A DNA stretch of 6,935 bases, from the NCBI GenBank assembly GCA_021820165.1, contig JAKADW010000109.1, positions 1-6,935 on the forward strand, given 5' to 3'. The DNA is from Bacillota bacterium (GTDB lineage: Bacteria > Bacillota_E > Sulfobacillia > Sulfobacillales > Sulfobacillaceae). The notes below the pieces were generated by a model. It did not search any database, was not told where the DNA came from, and saw only the letters and a program-made list of their open reading frames with translations. The translations under genes and the position numbers were made by a program. Positions 1-6,935 of this stretch are shown in pieces. Each line of letters opens with the position of its first letter. Position 1 is the first letter of the stretch.

Positions 1-256
1 CATAGACACTAACCTCGGCTACGCCAGCATATACACACCGATTGGAAATAGGGCTTAACGCAGCCCATCCCACAACCACCCCATCCAAGCGCGCAACAAG
101 TCGGCACTCTTTTACGTGATCGCTGTCCCAGTCCGACCACGCAGGAATGTTTTGCTCAAAGGTGGCATGCCCTGTTTCCATTCCTTCCTGGTAAATTCTC
201 CGAACCGCGTTCCAGTCTTCTGCCGACATGTTTTGGATGTCAAGACCCGTACTCAT
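1..256 (-). CDS. GNAT N-acetyltransferase, phosphinothricin acetyltransferase-like (partial, 3' end outside window)
   Basis: Only the first 85 codons lie in the window. The start is the ATG at 256-254, preceded by a purine-rich Shine-Dalgarno AGAGGA at 266-261. The translated N-terminus has the layout of the Pat/Bar and YncA branch of GNAT enzymes: 'MSAEDWNAVRRIYQEGMETGHATFE' (roughly residues 10-34), then a W-D-W patch, 'CRLVARLDGVVVGWAALSPIS' (51-71), and 'RCVYAGVAEVSVY' (73-85), the strand before the acetyl-CoA P-loop. The P-loop itself (expected just past residue 88) is off the window. Family members move an acetyl group from acetyl-CoA to the amine of phosphinothricin, methionine sulfoximine or similar amino-acid analogues; the true substrate cannot be read from sequence. 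It is co-directional with disA but separated by 165 bases, so it may or may not be in the same operon. Family assignment is confident; substrate is not. Confidence 0.88.
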   Translation of the reverse strand, partial: MSTGLDIQNMSAEDWNAVRRIYQEGMETGHATFEQNIPAWSDWDSDHVKECRLVARLDGVVVGWAALSPISNRCVYAGVAEVSVY

Positions 257-421
257 CACTTCCTCTGGCGTGTGCGACCGACAATCGCCTACGCTTTGTG
301 AATGATCCCCGCATCAGGATTCGCTGGAACGGTTCAGAAATCCTGCTGAGCCGCGAGCTACCCGAATGAACCTTTTAACTTTTCGCGCCCTCTGCTATTC
401 GTTCCAAATCCGCACCCAGTT
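257..421. other. Intergenic gap between disA and the GNAT gene
   Basis: No convincing gene is seen here. It contains an imperfect inverted repeat, GGTTCA at 331-336 against TGAACC at 367-372, with a 30-base interior and a T-rich stretch (373-383) following on the plus strand only. For minus-strand transcription leaving disA there is no T tract after the repeat, so it is not a good terminator for disA. No clear -35/-10 pair for the GNAT gene could be picked by eye. One alternative frame of disA stays open into this gap down to base 375 (see findings). Confidence 0.5.
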
Positions 422-1423
422 TTAGTAGCCCTCTAAGAATAACTGACAAATAGCCCGAGCCCTTTGTGGCCCCACGTCGGGCAACTGATCCAGTTGATCC
501 TGAGACGCTTGGCGTAGCCCCGTTAAACTCCCGAATTTTTCCACCACCTGCAGTATCACGGATTCTGGGAGTCGCGGTACGGTATGTAATAATCGGAAGC
601 CCCGGGCATCGACCATATCGGGCGTCCGCCGGTATCCCAATGCCCGAGCCCATTGCTCTAGTCCCCATTGGGCCGCCCCGTCCATTTCCACAGGATCCAA
701 CACCTTAAGGCTGGGTTGAGCTCGATAATCGGCAAAGATCCACTCCCATTCTCGATGTAGATCGGGATATTCTTCTAACTGGAGGTCTATCAGTCGCCCG
801 TCGCGTCCTAGTTCCACAATATAGCGGTAGATTTCATTACGGATCTGGATCGCGATCAAGACTCGACGGAGCACCTCCACCACATCGGCAAAAAATGACG
901 CGCCCCGCACTTCATTTTCCAACAAGCGTCGCGCTGCGCTCCGGTACAAACGGTCATAGCGGGATAACGAGGTCAAGGCTCCGGTAGCCTTGGTCAAAAT
1001 AAAGCTTAAGTCGTGGAGCACGTAGCGCGCCCCACCCCCATAAATACTCACGACGCTACGACGTTGCGACACGGCAATCACAATGGCGTCTCGGGTCCGT
1101 GCAATACGCTCCGCCGCACGATGCCGCATACCCGTCTCGGTGGACGATGCCGTCAACTTGGGCCGGAGTTCCACATTGGCACGCCGGATCCGGCTCATCT
1201 CGCGGTCCAAAACAATGGCGCCGTCCATCTTAGCCAGTTCATACACCAAGGCGTGATGAAACGGAACGTCGAGGGAAAATCCCCCCTCGAAATCCTCATC
1301 AATGCCCGGTTCCCCGCCGACCACAATCAGTGCTCCCGTGCGTGCTTTAATGATGTTATCGATGGCCTCACGGAGAGCGGTTCCTGGTGAAACCATCGCC
1401 AACATCCCTAAGATCTGATCCAT
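422..1423 (-). CDS. disA: DisA, diadenylate cyclase (c-di-AMP synthase) DNA integrity scanning protein
   Basis: DisA condenses two ATP molecules into cyclic di-AMP and slows or stops when bound to branched DNA such as recombination intermediates. The 333-residue product shows the DAC domain at about residues 1-140: 'SPGTALREAIDNI', 'GALIVVGG' (30-37), the catalytic 'DGA' at 67-69 in YELAKMDGAIVL, and the 'RHR' motif at 100-102 in TETGMRHRAAERIA. A helical spine follows (about 145-280), and a helix-hairpin-helix DNA-binding domain (about 284-327, 'VPRLPESVI...LDQLPDVGPQRARAI'). The ATG start at 1423 fits the family N-terminus and has GGGGGTG eight bases upstream. The gene lies 48 bases after the radA stop, the usual radA-disA pairing; RadA is known to bind and restrain DisA in Bacillus. 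The protein is about 25 residues shorter than the 360-residue Bacillus protein, with part of the deficit at the C-terminal tail after the HhH. Identity is certain; only the exact C-terminus is doubtful. Confidence 0.97.
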   Translation of the reverse strand: MDQILGMLAMVSPGTALREAIDNIIKARTGALIVVGGEPGIDEDFEGGFSLDVPFHHALVYELAKMDGAIVLDREMSRIRRANVELRPKLTASSTETGMRHRAAERIARTRDAIVIAVSQRRSVVSIYGGGARYVLHDLSFILTKATGALTSLSRYDRLYRSAARRLLENEVRGASFFADVVEVLRRVLIAIQIRNEIYRYIVELGRDGRLIDLQLEEYPDLHREWEWIFADYRAQPSLKVLDPVEMDGAAQWGLEQWARALGYRRTPDMVDARGFRLLHTVPRLPESVILQVVEKFGSLTGLRQASQDQLDQLPDVGPQRARAICQLFLEGY

Positions 1424-1461
1424 GACCGCAACACCCCCAAATCTTCGGCACCGGATGGCGG

Positions 1462-1484
1462 AGGAGCCCCCTTAGGGGGCTCCT
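1462..1484 (-). other. 10-bp hairpin whose loop is the radA stop codon
   Basis: The arms 1462-1471 and 1475-1484 are perfectly complementary (AGGAGCCCCC against GGGGGCTCCT) and enclose a three-base loop, 1472-1474, which is the TAA stop codon of radA. No T tract follows on the minus strand, so it is not a typical intrinsic terminator for the operon. It could be a partial attenuator, an mRNA stability element or a processing site between radA and disA. Structure is seen directly; role is inferred. Confidence 0.6.
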
Positions 1485-2184
1485 TTCCCAATCAATCCGA
1501 GTCGTTCTGCCGCATCGACCACGCGACTGACTCCGGCCACGGCAATCCCGGGATAGATTTCTCGGCCACCGCCGGGCACCATGCCCCGCTTAAACCCTAA
1601 ATGAGTCGCCTCTTTCAGTCGGTCATCGATACGGGCCACCCGCCTTAATTCGCCGGTTAATCCTACTTCACCTGCCACCACCCACTCCGGTGCCACCGGC
1701 ACCCCTTCGATGCTGGATAAGGCGGCTGCCAGAATACCCAGGTCCAATCCCGGATCGTCTAAGGATACGCCTCCGGTCAACTTAAAATACGCGTCCATTT
1801 CCGACACCCGCGCCCCTAGATGGCGTTCAATAACCGCCAGGACAATGGCGACACGATGGGGATCGAGCCCCGACACCACACGACGTGGGTTACCGTAGGA
1901 ACGCACCAATAAGGCTTGGACTTCCACCAAAATCGGTCGACTACCTTCTATGGCCGCCACCACCGCCGACCCTGATGCGCCCAGCGGGCGCTCCGCCAAG
2001 AGGCTTCGAGACGGGTCTTCGACCGCCACCAAGCCTTCACCTTGCATCGCGAACAGACCAAGCTCATTGGTAGCGCCAAAACGATTCTTAATCCCTCTCA
2101 AGGTTCGAAACGGGTGTTGGCGGTCACCTTCAAACATTAACACCACATCCACTAAGTGTTCGACCACTCGTGGACCTGCTAGCG
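1472..2184 (-). CDS. radA: RadA, DNA branch-migration helicase/ATPase, exon 2 (C-terminal half)
   Basis: The second exon starts at 2184 with the last two bases of a serine codon (CG) and continues L-A-G-P-R-V-V-E-H-L-V-D, the standard continuation of the RadA 'KEGS(I/L)AGPR' block. It supplies residues 223-458 of the spliced protein. Visible features are the RadA-specific 'KNRFG' motif (spliced residues 254-258) and the Lon-protease-like P domain: 'NPRRVVSGLDPHRVAIVLAVIERHLG', 'DAYFKLTGGVSLDDPGLDLGILAAALSS', 'GEVGLTGELRRV'. The expected catalytic Ser of true Lon is not seen, as is usual for RadA. A GTG at 2167 would open an apparent independent 231-residue frame, but conservation extends upstream of it (LAGPR), so it is not a real start. 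The stop TAA sits in a hairpin loop. With exon 1 the total is 458 residues, a normal RadA length. Confidence 0.95.
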
Positions 2185-2185
2185 C

Positions 2186-2920
2186 TTAATGGACAATGTC
2201 TTCATCCTGACCAGGCCATTCATATCGCTGCCCATCTGATGTTGGCAGAGTCTTAATCCACGCATATCGGGTAGGATCTTTCAGGATCACCGATTGGGGT
2301 TGGCCCCGATGCCGAAAAAGCTTCGCGAGAGACTCGAGATCTTCTAACGCCCAGGCCTTGCGCCCACGGGGTTTTAGAGTGAGCAGGGTCAGAATCTCAA
2401 TAGCCACCCCGAGAGGTGCCCAGGCCATCCGCGTGAGTCCGTCCGGGGCTACCGGAGTCTCTCGTAAAACGTCCCAGTGTTTGGTGCCCAAGCGTGCAGC
2501 ACACGCCATCGAAACCGTAAACCGTCCCGAATCCCACGCCAAGGCTTCGGACCCTGGGTGAATGACCACGATATGTTTAAAGACATCCTGCCACCGAATG
2601 GCATCGGACACTACGGCAAACCAAGCATTGTGATGATGCCCCACATCAGAGACCAAAATCACTGGATGGGGCGCAGGAAACATCCGGGCCACGAGGCCCT
2701 TTTCTTCCAGTTTCCGAGCGAGGTTCCACCAGGGTTCGAATTCCGCCCAGGGTGCGTAGTCTTGAGCCCGATGATGTTGCCAACGTCGAAACGCCTTATT
2801 GCCTTGTGCCCATACTGTCAGGAGCTGGGCGTGTTGTCTCTGAGGATCCAAAGCGCATTGCCTCGTTTCCTGCACATTCGGTTGCCACGAAGGGCTCTCG
2901 CGCTTCATGCGTTCAACCAT
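2186..2920 (-). CDS. Intron-encoded protein of unknown family, tryptophan-rich (candidate homing endonuclease or maturase)
   Basis: A 244-codon open frame lies inside the radA intron. I do not recognise the family: there is no clear LAGLIDADG, GIY-YIG, HNH or His-Cys motif. Intron position suggests a homing endonuclease or maturase, by inference only. The product has 14 tryptophans (about 6%), a basic, helical-looking N-terminal third (about 28-76, with 'AFRRWQHHRAQDYAPWAEFEPWW'), a possible alpha/beta segment 'HPVILVSDVGHHHNAWFAVV' (85-104) and 'HIVVIHP' (116-122), and a helical C-terminal third ending in K/R- and D/E-rich turns. The 5' end overlaps P4-P8 of the intron core, and ATG 2920 has no clear ribosome site. 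An alternative is GTG 2692, preceded by AAGGG four bases upstream, giving 168 residues mostly inside the P8 loop. The 3' end reads through P8, J8/7 and P7 and stops with TAA at 2188-2186, directly before the terminal G. It could also be degenerate. Confidence 0.65.
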   Translation of the reverse strand: MVERMKRESPSWQPNVQETRQCALDPQRQHAQLLTVWAQGNKAFRRWQHHRAQDYAPWAEFEPWWNLARKLEEKGLVARMFPAPHPVILVSDVGHHHNAWFAVVSDAIRWQDVFKHIVVIHPGSEALAWDSGRFTVSMACAARLGTKHWDVLRETPVAPDGLTRMAWAPLGVAIEILTLLTLKPRGRKAWALEDLESLAKLFRHRGQPQSVILKDPTRYAWIKTLPTSDGQRYEWPGQDEDIVH

Positions 2921-2942
2921 TCATGCATATAGCCCAGTACTT

Positions 2943-2964
2943 TAGCTAGAGTTACCTCAAGCTA
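2943..2964 (-). other. Intron P2 hairpin with GNRA (GUAA) tetraloop
   Basis: UAGCU (2964-2960) pairs with AGCUA (2947-2943), then one U-U mismatch, then GAG pairs with CUC around the loop GUAA (2955-2952). The hairpin contains the TGA at 2959-2957 that ends translation of unspliced radA message. GNRA loops in group I introns commonly dock into a receptor helix; no receptor was identified here. Confidence 0.8.
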
Positions 2965-2965
2965 C

Positions 2966-2972
2966 GGGCCGC
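2966..2972 (-). other. Internal guide sequence of the intron (P1 and P10)
   Basis: The intron bases GCGGCCC are complementary over all seven positions to the ligated exon junction GGGU/CGC (2980-2977 joined to 2184-2182), with a U.G wobble exactly at the 5' splice site. GCCC pairs with the 5' exon (P1) and GCG with the 3' exon (P10). Because the junction was placed from protein conservation, this match is independent support for both splice sites. Confidence 0.9.
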
Positions 2973-2976
2973 ATTG

Positions 2977-3640
2977 ACCCTTCTTTGGTGACATGCCCCA
3001 CCAAAAAGATGGGACATGCGGTATCGGCCGATCCTTTGGCCACCCGCATGAGCCTAGCGGCCACGTCACGGACCTGTCCTACACTACCCGGAGCCGATTC
3101 TAGCTCCGGATTGTAAACCGTTTGTAGCGAATCCACCACGGCTAGACGCCAAGACCGGGAACTAAGTACCTCGACAATGTGGTGGATGTCGCCTTCGGCC
3201 AGCACAAATAGGTTGTCGCCCACCGTCTGCAAGCGAGCGGCCCGGAGCCGAGTCTGTGCCTGGGATTCTTCTGCCGTCACATACAACACCGGCCCTTCAC
3301 GGCTGGCAAACGCAGCAATTTGAAGAAGTAGCGTTGACTTCCCAATGCCCGGGTCACCGCCCAGTAAAACAAAACTACCGGGTACTACGCCGCCTCCAAG
3401 CACCCGGTCGACCTCGGGTAGACCCGAGTCGAAACGGGAGACCGTCTCGGTCTCGATGCGATTTAAGGGTATCGGTTGCTTCAAACCCCCTGTCGATCCG
3501 GTTGTGACGCTACTCTTGGCGACGATTTCTTCTTGCATGGTACTGTATCCACCACACCCTGGACACCGTCCGAGCCACCGGGCACTCGCGGTGGCACAAA
3601 CCTGGCATACGTAGCGCTTATGATCCCGGATTGCTCTCAC
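2977..3640 (-). CDS. radA: RadA, DNA branch-migration helicase/ATPase, exon 1 (N-terminal half)
   Basis: RadA is a RecA-like, ring-forming motor that drives branch migration of recombination intermediates in the cytoplasm. Exon 1 encodes residues 1-221 plus the first base of codon 222. It shows the four-cysteine zinc finger C12-x2-C15-x10-C26-x2-C29, Walker A 'GGDPGIGKST' at 94-103, 'VTAEES' at 121-126, Walker B 'LAVVDS' near 165, and 'HVTKEG' at the exon end. Without splicing, translation would continue S-M-R-P-V-A and stop at TGA 2959-2957, giving 227 residues that lack KNRFG and the Lon-like domain. The GTG start at 3640 lies 5 bases after the clpC stop; the sequence AGGAAGG directly abuts it, which is close for a ribosome site, so translational coupling with clpC is likely. 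Joined to exon 2 the protein is 458 residues, the same as in Bacillus subtilis. Confidence 0.95.
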
Positions 3641-3645
3641 CCTTC

Positions 3646-6093
3646 CTATTCGGTAGTGGCGTCATCCACTCGCGTGAAGGTCATATGACCTTCCTTACTA
3701 TCCACGAGAACTTTGGCGCCTTCGGGAAAGCGACCAGCGAGAATTTCTTCAGCCAGTTGATCTTCGACTAGTCGCTGAATCGCGCGCCGAAGCGGTCTTG
3801 CCCCGAACACCGGATCGAAGCCCTCCCGCGCGATGAGGTCCTTGGCCGCATCTGTAATCTCCAAGTGATACCCGTTGCGCCCGATCCGGTCCGTAACCTC
3901 CTGGAACATGATCCCCACAATATGCGCCAAATGTTCTTGGGATAGTTCGTGGAAGACGATAATATCGTCGACCCGGTTCAAGAACTCGGGGCGAAACGTT
4001 CTTTTCACCTCGTCCATGAGTCGATCTTTCATCTCACGGTACTGACCGTCTTCACTATCGCGGCGAAATCCAATCGTCGCTTGGCGCTTAATGACGTCTG
4101 CGCCCACGTTTGAGGTCATAATAATCACCGTGTTGCGAAAGTCGACTGTTCTACCTTTCGACTCGGTTAGTCTTCCTTCCTCCAACACCTGCAATAAAAT
4201 GTTGAAGACTTCTGGATGCGCCTTCTCAATCTCGTCCAACAGGACCACGGAATAGGGGTGGCGACGCACCGCTTCGGTCAGTTGACCGCCTTCCTCGTAG
4301 CCCACATAGCCCGGAGGGGCACCCACCAGCCGGGACACCGCATGGCGTTCCATATATTCAGACATGTCGATGGTCACCATTGCGTCTTCATCGCCAAATA
4401 GCGAAGACGCTAAGGCTTTGGCCAATTCCGATTTGCCAACTCCGGTTGGGCCCAGGAACAGAAAAGAACCAATCGGACGGCGGGGATTCTTCAAGCCGGC
4501 TCGGGCTCGGCGAATCGCCCGACTCACGGCCTGAACTGCCTCGTGTTGCCCCACCACGCGCCGATGCAGTTCCTCTTCCAATTTCAAGAGTCGTTCGGAC
4601 TCTTCCGCCGCTAACCGTTCGGTGGGAATTCCGGTCCACGAGGACACAATGTGTGCAATATCATCCGGCATCACATTAATCGCCTCTTTGCCCTGCCGGG
4701 TATGCCATTCTTGAGTCTGATGGTCGAGTTCTTCCCGTAGCTTTTGTTCTTCATCGCGCATTTGCGCGGCCTTCTCGAATTCTTGAGCCTGTACCGCCGC
4801 TTCTTTTTCTTTGCGGAGTTCTTCGAGCTTACCCGCCAAGTCTTTGAGATCCGGCGGGGCCACATAGCTTTTTAGGCGAACACGTGAGGCCGCCTCGTCA
4901 ATTAAATCGATGGCCTTGTCGGGAAGAAATCGGTCTGGCACGTACCGATCCGACAGACGCACAGCGGCTTCAATGGCCTGGCTGGTAATGTTGACCCGAT
5001 GGTGGGCCTCGTAGCGGTCACGTAATCCATAAAGGATCTGAATCGCCTCGTCGGACGACGGTTCTTCGACCATAATCGGTTGGAATCGGCGCTCGAGAGC
5101 CGGATCCCGCTCAATATACTTACGGTATTCATCGAGGGTGGTTGCCCCAATGGCTTGCAACTCACCGCGGGCCAGTGCGGGCTTTAAAATGTTGGCCGCA
5201 TCGATGGCGCCTTCCGCTGCCCCGGCCCCCACGATGGTGTGCATTTCGTCGATAAACAAAATCACGTTTTTCGCCTCACGGATTTCGTTCATGGCGCGTT
5301 TCAGGCGGTCCTCAAATTCGCCCCGATATTTAGAACCAGCGAGCATCGCGCCCAAGTCCAAAGCCACCACCCGCCGGTCTTTTAACGTCTCCGGCACCTT
5401 ATTATCGACAATTCGCTCGGCCAACCCTTCCACCACCGCCGTCTTACCTACCCCCGGCTCGCCAATAAGCACCGGATTGTTCTTGGTCCTCCGGCTTAGA
5501 ATTTGGATCACGCGCTCTGCCTCTTTGTCGCGTCCGATCACCGGATCCAGTTTATTGTCCCGGGCCATTTGGGTTAAATCGCGACCATAGAGATCCAAAG
5601 TCGGCGTATTGACTTGGCTGGGCGCCTCGCCCGCGCCTCCTTGGCCGCCCGACTGGGCACCGTTGGTATGCACCAACTGGTGCCGGACTTTGCTAAGGTC
5701 AGCCCCGGCCGCCAACAAAACTTGGGCGGCCACGCCCTCCCCCTCGCGAATTAAGCCCAAAAGCAGGTGTTCTGGGCCAATGTAATTTTGGTTAAGCGTG
5801 CGGGCCTCTTGACCGGCTAATTCCAACACCACTTTTTTGGCGCGCGGAGTAAACGTCACCTCGTCGTTGGGTCCTATCGCCGGACCTCTCCCCGTCGCCT
5901 TAAGCACCTCGGAACGGACTGTTTCGAGGTCGAGCCCAATGGATTGCAACACTTTGGCCGGCAAAGAATTGGTTTCCCGGATAAGACCCAACAACAAATG
6001 TTTGGTCCCCACAAAATTATGCCCCATGCGCCGTGCCTCATCCTGGGCGTGAATGACTACGCGTCGTGCCTTTTCGGTAAACTGTCCAAACAT
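3646..6093 (-). CDS. clpC: ClpC, AAA+ unfoldase subunit of the ClpCP protease
   Basis: A complete 815-residue ClpC, normal length. ClpC hexamers unfold substrates, including arginine-phosphorylated proteins marked by McsB, and thread them into ClpP. Visible in order: a double Clp-N repeat (1-140; '[21 protein letters not shown]' and '[18 protein letters not shown]'); a Gly-rich linker (144-158); NBD1 with Walker A GEPGVGKT 211-218, Walker B ILFIDE 278-283 and arginine finger ALERRF 332-337; a UVR-type middle segment (about 428-456, '[22 protein letters not shown]'), the adaptor-binding coiled coil; NBD2 with Walker A GPTGVGKS 548-555 and Walker B VVLLDE 616-621; the ClpP-docking tripeptide IGF 674-676; and a C-terminal D2-small domain ('[17 protein letters not shown]'). 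The ATG at 6093 has AAGGGG at 6107-6102, eight bases upstream. It follows mcsB by 53 bases and precedes radA by 5, the classical ctsR-mcsA-mcsB-clpC-radA-disA order. CtsR control would act upstream of this window. Confidence 0.98.
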
Positions 6094-6101
6094 GGTTTCA
6101 T

Positions 6102-6107
6102 CCCCTT
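6102..6107 (-). promoter_or_regulatory. Ribosome binding site of clpC
   Basis: AAGGGG on the minus strand, eight bases before the clpC ATG at 6093-6091. It settles the ClpC start, which also matches the invariant family N-terminus MFG-F-T-A. Confidence 0.7.
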
Positions 6108-6146
6108 CGCATCACGCAAGCATGTTCGCGTGTGTCTTCACTCCCC

Positions 6147-6932
6147 TTATTCTTCCCCTAACAACCGCCGCAAGTTGTCCGCTCGTAATTGGTCGCGTTC
6201 CGCCGCACTAAGTTCTCTACCAGCCGTCATTTGAAGAAAGCCCGGGCGGGTCTCTACCGTAAGTTGCGCATAGGTGGCGGCATGCGGGGCGTTAAGGAGC
6301 CCCAAATCGGATCCGATCTTGACCTCGGAAAGCAGGCGGAGCGCCTCTTCGGACGATATAATCCGAGCGTGGGTGAGAAGCCCCCAGGCCCGACCCACAC
6401 GGTCGGCCATCGCCACTCCTGCATTTTGGAGCAAATGCTGGCGAGCGTGGCGCTCGCGCCCCACAATTTGCTGAGTCACGATGGTTAAATTATGGATAAA
6501 CTCCTCCTCGCTAAGGCCCAGAGACACTTGATTCGAAACCTGGAAGATATTGCCGAGCGCCTCGGACCCTTCCCCATAGAGTCCTCGCACCACCATCCCT
6601 AATTGAGCCAAGGTGGTAAACACTTGCGACGCTTGGTGCGTCAGCACCAAAGCTGGAAGGTGCATCATCACCGAGGCACGCATGGCGGTCCCAATATTGG
6701 TCGGGCACGCCGCAATGTACCCCGATCGGGCATCAAACGCATAGTCCACGTGTTGTTCTATGGCATCATCGAGCCGATTGGCCACATCCCACGATTCACC
6801 GAGTTGTAGACCCGGGAGCACCACTTGAATTCTTAAGTGGTCCGCCTCGTTCATCGGGATCCTCACACTCTCTCGCTCGTCGATAGCCACCGCGTCATAG
6901 GGTACCGGTTCTTGCCCCAACATCGGACTCCC
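6147..6932 (-). CDS. mcsB: McsB, protein-arginine kinase, C-terminal part (5' part missing; in-frame TAG at window edge)
   Basis: McsB phosphorylates arginines in CtsR and misfolded proteins, marking them for ClpCP. The frame holds 261 codons including about 258 from the first ATG (6923), against roughly 350-360 in the family. Visible: 'MNEADHLRIQVVLPGLQL', 'DDAIEQHVDYAFDARSGYIAACPTNIGTAMRASVMMHLPAL' with the conserved phosphagen-kinase cysteine in ACPTNIGT, 'VVRGLYGEGSEALGNIFQVSNQ', and near the C-terminus RDQLRA (243-248 from that ATG), the allosteric phospho-arginine pocket motif 'RDxxRA'. The N-terminal phosphagen-kinase part with the 'SSRIRLARN' block is not present in the window. Directly upstream in frame the bases at 6935-6933 read TAG. 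Protein similarity to the family appears to start at S-P-M-L, so the ATG at 6923 is not a normal McsB start, although GGGGAG lies just before it. Identity is sure; whether the gene is intact is not. Confidence 0.9.
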   Translation of the reverse strand, partial: GSPMLGQEPVPYDAVAIDERESVRIPMNEADHLRIQVVLPGLQLGESWDVANRLDDAIEQHVDYAFDARSGYIAACPTNIGTAMRASVMMHLPALVLTHQASQVFTTLAQLGMVVRGLYGEGSEALGNIFQVSNQVSLGLSEEEFIHNLTIVTQQIVGRERHARQHLLQNAGVAMADRVGRAWGLLTHARIISSEEALRLLSEVKIGSDLGLLNAPHAATYAQLTVETRPGFLQMTAGRELSAAERDQLRADNLRRLLGEE

Positions 6933-6935
6933 CTA

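Follow-up and report, generated by a model that had tools for sequence, protein, structure and literature searches.

A predicted group I intron in radA of the Sulfobacillus family and its conserved open reading frame

In the 6,935-nt stretch of Bacillota DNA considered here (the window; assembly GCA_021820165.1, contig JAKADW010000109.1, positions 1 to 6,935, lineage Sulfobacillaceae), the minus-strand gene radA is split into two frames by a 792-nt insert at positions 2185-2976. Is this a broken gene, or one that is made whole at the RNA level? The comparative evidence points to a group I intron, with a probability of about 0.96. Splicing that joins U2977 to C2184 is likewise predicted with high confidence, if slightly less than the intron assignment itself. 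Coordinates without a locus name are those of the window, and all its features described below lie on the minus strand.

Exon 1 (2977..3640, recognized by its open reading frame (ORF) and by TIGR00416) opens with a GTG start and encodes RadA residues 1-221 plus the first base of Ser222. Its frame ends in HVTKEG, followed by the first base of the serine codon at U2977. Exon 2 (1472..2184) supplies the remainder of Ser222 and runs from C2184 as LAGPRVVEH to the stop. When left unspliced, the exon 1 frame reads ...HVTKEGS, MRPVA and then meets a stop at 2959-2957, 18 nt into the intron. The join of U2977 to C2184 generates a TCG serine codon and a RadA of 458 amino acids (aa), which scores 517.3 bits against TIGR00416 (cut-off 403.05), versus 247.8 and 253.3 bits for the separate exon 1 and exon 2 halves. 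The coordinates, the frame break and the junction that had been given in a first-pass annotation of this DNA were thus correct. In a motif test the junction, consisting of exon GGGU, an intron-final G and exon CG, fits 35/35 radA introns, and in the intronless relatives L083 and L084 the sequence is continuous across it. A comparison of six sequences revealed that the insert is nearly invariant over its first ~195 nt and its last ~30 nt and divergent in between. The insert length is not a multiple of three in 20 of 27 family sequences, the window included. The relatives also read the ribozyme core in different frames, and the intron ends are therefore constrained as RNA.

The assignment of the insert (2185..2976) to group I is based on these conserved ends, a consensus fold, covariation and a link to the Rfam group I model RF00028 (Intron_gpI) by way of a distant intron, L124. 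An alignment of the 27 intron 5' cores only was folded with RNAalifold, with no structure guide. The consensus contains P1 and P3 to P6, together with P2 capped by a GNAA loop, P6a and an extension of P5 that ends in a GAGA loop, and a compensatory change is seen at 22/50 pairs. In the named structure 96.9% of cells are paired, compared to 27-43% in slid controls. None of 500 shuffles matched its pairing or its covariation, while its number of pair types was matched by 27/500. Higher counts were obtained with 31 sequences (35/49 pairs compensated) and with 21 sequences (41/49), but these lean towards the model because the alignments were fitted to it.

The individual helices follow the group I plan. 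P1 (2966..2980) is formed by exon GGGU (2980-2977) and intron GCCC (2969-2966), its four pairs being unchanged in 27/27 sequences, and the U2977.G2969 wobble at the 5' splice site is likewise present in 27/27. P2 (2943..2964) pairs 2964-2956 with 2951-2943 and has 6/9 pairs compensated in 26 distinct sequences. The 5' strand of P3 (2929..2937) comprises CUGGGC at 2937-2932, with a possible extension to 2929 and 3/9 pairs compensated; the 3' strand, GCCCAG at 2825..2830, comes from the consensus fold. P4 pairs 2922..2926 with 2876-2872 (3' strand 2872..2876), and its compensation appears only once distant members are added. P5, spanning 2881..2917, pairs 2917-2914 with 2884-2881 (4/4 pairs compensated) and encloses its extension, 2909-2900 with 2895-2886 (7/9 pairs compensated). 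P6 (2871-2868 with 2846-2843) and P6a (2865-2861 with 2853-2849) together occupy 2843..2871 and are backed by both consensus fold and covariation.

P7 and P8 connect the core with the distal end of the intron. P7 and P10 were examined in a separate P7/P10 table, from which L120 and L087 are left out. The 5' strand of P7, G(A)GACAA at 2834..2840 with a bulged A2839, pairs with UUGUCC at 2196-2191. The latter adjoins J8/7 (2204-2197), and the whole segment 2191..2204 conforms to GATGAAGACA(U/G)UGUCC in 27/27. Pairs 1-4 of P7 are formed in all 38 sequences, with 8 strand combinations, and pairs 2 and 4 show compensatory changes; pair 5 is not formed in 18 of the 38 sequences, nor is pair 6 in 15 of them. 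The conserved G-C pair, the predicted guanosine site, is found in 38/38, and the bulged A was assigned by sequence context. P8 is a predicted duplex of UCCUGAC (2817..2823) and GUCAGGA (2205..2211), which is recovered in 27/27 with sequences differing among members, and its loop holds most of the intron ORF. The terminal intron base (2185) is a G in all 35 radA introns tested. P10, the intron half of which is GCG at 2972-2970, has at least 3 contiguous bp in 34/35 introns and 2 bp in L119. Its guide tracks the exon: exon CGC is met by guide GCG and exon CGAUU by guide AAUCG, whereby pair 3 changes from G-C to U-A.

Overall, the helix order P3, P4, P5, P6, P7, P3', P8, P7' is that of group I introns. 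P1 to P8, including the bulged A of P7, and P10 had been paired by eye in the first-pass annotation, and all of them were found again by the consensus fold, the covariation, the P8 duplex prediction and the P7/P10 table. A P9 had never been claimed, and neither P9 nor P9.0 is seen in the window intron, because the P7 3' strand is separated from the 3' splice site by only 6 nt. P9 is not universal among group I introns.

The Rfam search with Intron_gpI, which had been proposed as the check, gave a negative answer. With cmscan, RF00028 detects nothing in the window at its gathering threshold and nothing up to E 10 in 2100-3050. There were no matches in 30 related loci (19 of 26 family radA loci, plus 6, 1 and 4 further loci), and none at the intron sites of 8 whole genomes, with one 10.6-bit scrap elsewhere. 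In a control on known genomes, RF00028 matched in 8/14 and exceeded its cut-off in 2. Its silence, which is one half of the refuting outcome named in the first-pass annotation (the other being cDNA with the unspliced form alone), is ascribed to narrow coverage; a match to this model is a matter of detection and does not define group I. The group I case was therefore built from comparison, so that the intron is supported by its comparative structure and not by Rfam. In the accessible text of PMC6125680, the authors expected poor coverage of group I diversity by RF00028 and obtained nothing significant with it in an archaeal search.

A bridge is provided by L124, in which a ribonucleotide reductase gene is interrupted by a group I intron (1501-2650). 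Model R3 was built without L124 and matches it at E 8.3e-14. On the same bases RF00028 reaches E 2.6e-10 and 46.2 bits (cut-off 50), with a second downstream piece at E 1.5e-4. As read from the two alignments, P3, P4 and P7 are in common register. The curated group I family and the radA-intron lineage therefore meet on one sequence. In G427 an intron of the same kind as that of radA lies in a ribonucleotide reductase gene (PF02867). The ORF of the L124 intron looks HNH-like by eye; in Pfam it has only a sub-cut-off zf-FCS match.

How far does the intron extend at this site? A first search of a protein database yielded 8 relatives of the intron ORF, and in L001-L005 the ORF lies between two radA halves that are 77-90% identical to those of the window. 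In the Sulfobacillus family (the family of G001), 34 genomes were examined. The N-terminal half of radA is matched in 26 of them, and in every one of these the site holds an insert of 752-807 nt. The ORF is found in 27 family genomes, the 27th being G028, which has the radA C-half and a partial core. It follows that 27/27 radA-bearing family genomes carry the intron. The seven others (G006, G007, G015, G018, G030, G033, G034) have no N-half match and show weak C-half matches at 25-30% identity, which were taken for Lon-type proteases; their lack of RadA would reflect gene loss or missing contigs. Likewise, L038-L040 (weak radA N-half) and L064-L072 (weak C-half, 25-30% identity) were taken for other ATPases and Lon-type proteases on their weak partial matches.

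Beyond the family, model R1, built from 27 sequences, revealed the intron in 3/15 genomes of another class (G136, G097 and G364), each time at the radA site described above, and gave weak matches in L079-L081 (E 0.16-0.4). With E values up to 0.1 accepted, model R2 gave matches in 36 of the 154 genomes of the class of G001. Of these matches, 33 are radA introns: the 27 of the family and those of G469, G509-G512 and G515, the placement in G510 being based on one radA half. The match in G498 (L121, E 5.5e-4) lies inside an uninterrupted frame and was discarded as false. G401 is matched at E 0.046, and the match in G508 adjoins a weakly tail-fibre-like gene (phrog_772, E 0.0071). A stretch of L120 (1706-1857, minus strand) also adjoins a weakly tail-fibre-like gene; it is matched by R2 at E 1.1e-11 and by R3, in which L120 is included, at E 3.5e-26. 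Empty radA sites that read straight through were observed in L083 (G514), L084 (G513) and L088 (G436), with the TCG codon kept in L084. Across the phylum, R3, run with strict filters and at E up to 0.01, matches 7/398 sampled genomes, and the intron lineage is rare there. Viral contigs contained no relative by ORF or by core pattern, BFVD gave nothing under E 0.001, phage DNA gave one 27-base chance match, and plasmids gave none. A viral origin was rejected on the results for viral contigs, BFVD and phage DNA.

The same kind of intron also occurs in other host genes. A second, ORF-less one is present in G097 and G136 in a gene judged from its sequence to be cheY-like, between presumed fliY-like and fliO-like genes; G364 has a cheY-like intron too (L125), partly masked. 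These regions (L089 1420-1995, L091 1455-1985, L125 1400-1590) represent one site in a flagellar operon. By P1/P10 pairings read by eye, the introns measure 174 nt (L089 1506-1679) and 162 nt (L091 1506-1667), although covariance models set their P1 in another register. Folded alone, they adopt most of the same helices (L091 without P2), with z values of -2.89 and -4.04; equal stability is reached by 1/200 and 0/200 shuffles, respectively. P7 is missing from these folds because it is a pseudoknot. In L089 the cheY gene has a further in-frame stop after the intron. G204 (L090, minus strand, 480-1700) has an intron of this kind in a chaperonin gene, presumably thermosome-like and located after what we take to be hrcA, with an apparent P9 by eye and a 306-aa ORF. 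Compared to the radA-intron ORF profile, this ORF gives an hhalign E of 2.5e-5 with 75% probability over 57 columns, which is suggestive of, but not certain evidence for, a distant similarity.

Could the insert be something else, or could it remain in the message? An unspliced insertion that broke radA, leaving relics or two separate proteins, would agree with the empty Rfam result. It is nevertheless very improbable, given that the RadA halves of L001-L005 are so close to those of the window, that RadA is 59-99% identical pairwise over 27 family members and that core and junction are kept in 27/27. Moreover, the first start codon of the exon-2 frame comes only after LAGPR. Even further from likely is an insert of a different nature, such as an intein, a group II intron, an IStron or some other transposon, despite the large size of the insert, its single ORF and its conserved site. 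An intein is opposed by the insert being out of frame with RadA in 20/27 and by the stop 18 nt in. No transposase or reverse transcriptase is seen, since Pfam and NCBIfam offer nothing for the ORF up to E 1 and its only match is to PHROG, at E 0.11. Among RNA families, a limit of E 10 admits a single match, to a microRNA model at E 9.3. The intein, group II intron, transposon and pseudogene readings were rejected on this counter-evidence.

The intron ORF (2186..2851) encodes 221 aa. It starts with TTG at 2851-2849 inside P6a, and its TAA ends one base before the 3' splice site. In 27/27 family sequences the start lies within the ribozyme core, in P6a and just before P7, and the TTG- or GTG-started frame is open. 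A stop falls inside 5/27 of the ORF matches, but none precedes the ORF end in those started frames. In L024 and L029 the ORF lacks a stop ahead of exon 2, and its frame would extend into radA exon 2. A longer 244-aa version starting at 2920 was rejected because relatives do not keep that frame. In three distant members, AAGGAGG sites precede an ATG at about the place of the ORF start. The dN/dS ratio is 0.09-0.43 in 11/15 pairs (4 pairs are saturated), and by this measure the ORF is under purifying selection. ORF and RadA distances diverge together (Mantel r 0.88, n=27, 0/2000 permutations), L078 (truncated), L087 (one radA half) and L122 (no ORF drawn) being left out of the test.

The Pfam search of the window ORF up to E 1 covers LAGLIDADG, HNH and GIY-YIG, none of which is matched, and across 30 ORF members it gave three unrelated weak matches, in one member each. 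Weak matches to restriction-endonuclease-like folds suggest a protein of this kind without conserved catalytic residues: read by eye, the D...(D/E)-x-K residues of the motif are absent from 30 aligned ORFs (A4).

What might such a protein do? The favoured role is that of a maturase, to which we give slightly less than an even chance. The same intron could instead house an active homing endonuclease that holds the site by repeated homing, which is rather unlikely. The fold matches, the presence at the same site in distant lineages next to empty sites in the sister genomes L083 and L084, and the distantly similar ORF in the chaperonin intron would all agree with homing. The lack of a conserved (D/E)-x-K pair and the parallel distances of ORF and RadA speak against it. 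Furthermore, none of the examined radA-bearing family genomes has an empty site, and hence no homing targets are seen within the family. Somewhat less probable again is a host or regulatory function, in which ORF translation versus core folding would act as a switch of RadA output. Here the position of the start codon in the core, the AAGGAGG sites and the purifying selection are in favour, but the overlap of ORF and core is compatible with simple compactness.

Three known intron-encoded proteins can be compared. I-Ssp6803I is a PD-(D/E)XK homing endonuclease of a bacterial group I intron; a nuclease-like fold in such an intron would be common to both. The radA-intron ORF differs in its unconserved catalytic residues and in an extra winged-helix-like C-terminal part. 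I-AniI is a LAGLIDADG protein. So is the Thermotoga 23S intron maturase, as stated in the accessible text of PMC3984707 and PMC3943268, and the two serve as the model for an intron-encoded splicing helper; the radA-intron ORF, in contrast, has no LAGLIDADG match in Pfam.

As hosts of group I introns among bacterial protein genes, where they are rare, the accessible text of PMC3984707 names flagellin, recA, nrdE and nrdF. The radA intron resembles these: it too is of group I, interrupts a conserved protein-coding gene of a bacterium and has a stop soon after exon 1. However, radA is not among the hosts named there, and the radA intron differs in its family-wide presence, its lack of P9, its unrelated ORF family and its escape from RF00028. 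RF00028 itself aligns with R3 on the same L124 stretch, and leaves the radA, cheY and chaperonin members tried unrecognized. Within titles and the beginnings of abstracts, with subscription journals outside the scope, no described group I intron in radA or in Sulfobacillus was found. The kind of element is thus known. As far as the searches reach, what is new is the hosts (radA, cheY and chaperonin), the family of intron ORFs, the absence of P9 and the presence throughout a bacterial family.

In the proposed mechanism, a ribosome leaving exon 1 encounters a stop after 18 nt of intron, and folding of the core would thereby remain unhindered. Guanosine-initiated, two-step self-splicing would then join U2977 to C2184. 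Translation of the ORF from the TTG in P6a would be possible only with the core unfolded. The ORF protein is most likely a former homing endonuclease of restriction-endonuclease-like fold that now would act as splicing cofactor. The other minus-strand genes of the window include a kinase with an ATP:guanido domain (mcsB-like) and disA, by domain matches, and what is presumably clpC, named from its own sequence. The c-di-AMP synthase gene disA (422-1423) is the next gene after radA. With disA adjoining radA downstream, its expression could depend on the state of the radA transcript. Taken as a whole, the tentative picture is that of an unrecognized lineage of Firmicutes group I introns that lacks P9 in its radA and cheY members and can be as short as 162 nt. 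It may have been domesticated in radA for the age of the family, together with a PD-(D/E)XK-derived maturase. ORF translation and ribozyme folding would be mutually exclusive and so form a switch on RadA, perhaps also on disA. As a whole, this combination is possible, but on balance rather improbable.

The first-pass annotation had foreseen a "hypothetical protein" at this position; a conserved ORF family, family-wide presence and other host genes go beyond this. The cheY introns of 162 and 174 nt and the ORF family lend themselves to direct experiments. Group I introns are thought to come and go; where one is found in all examined radA-bearing genomes of a family, with an undecayed ORF, an originally selfish intron should by now be of use. 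Because a lineage that occupies several host genes escapes the standard model, counts of bacterial group I introns are too low, and interrupted radA and cheY frames of these bacteria probably do not mark pseudogenes.
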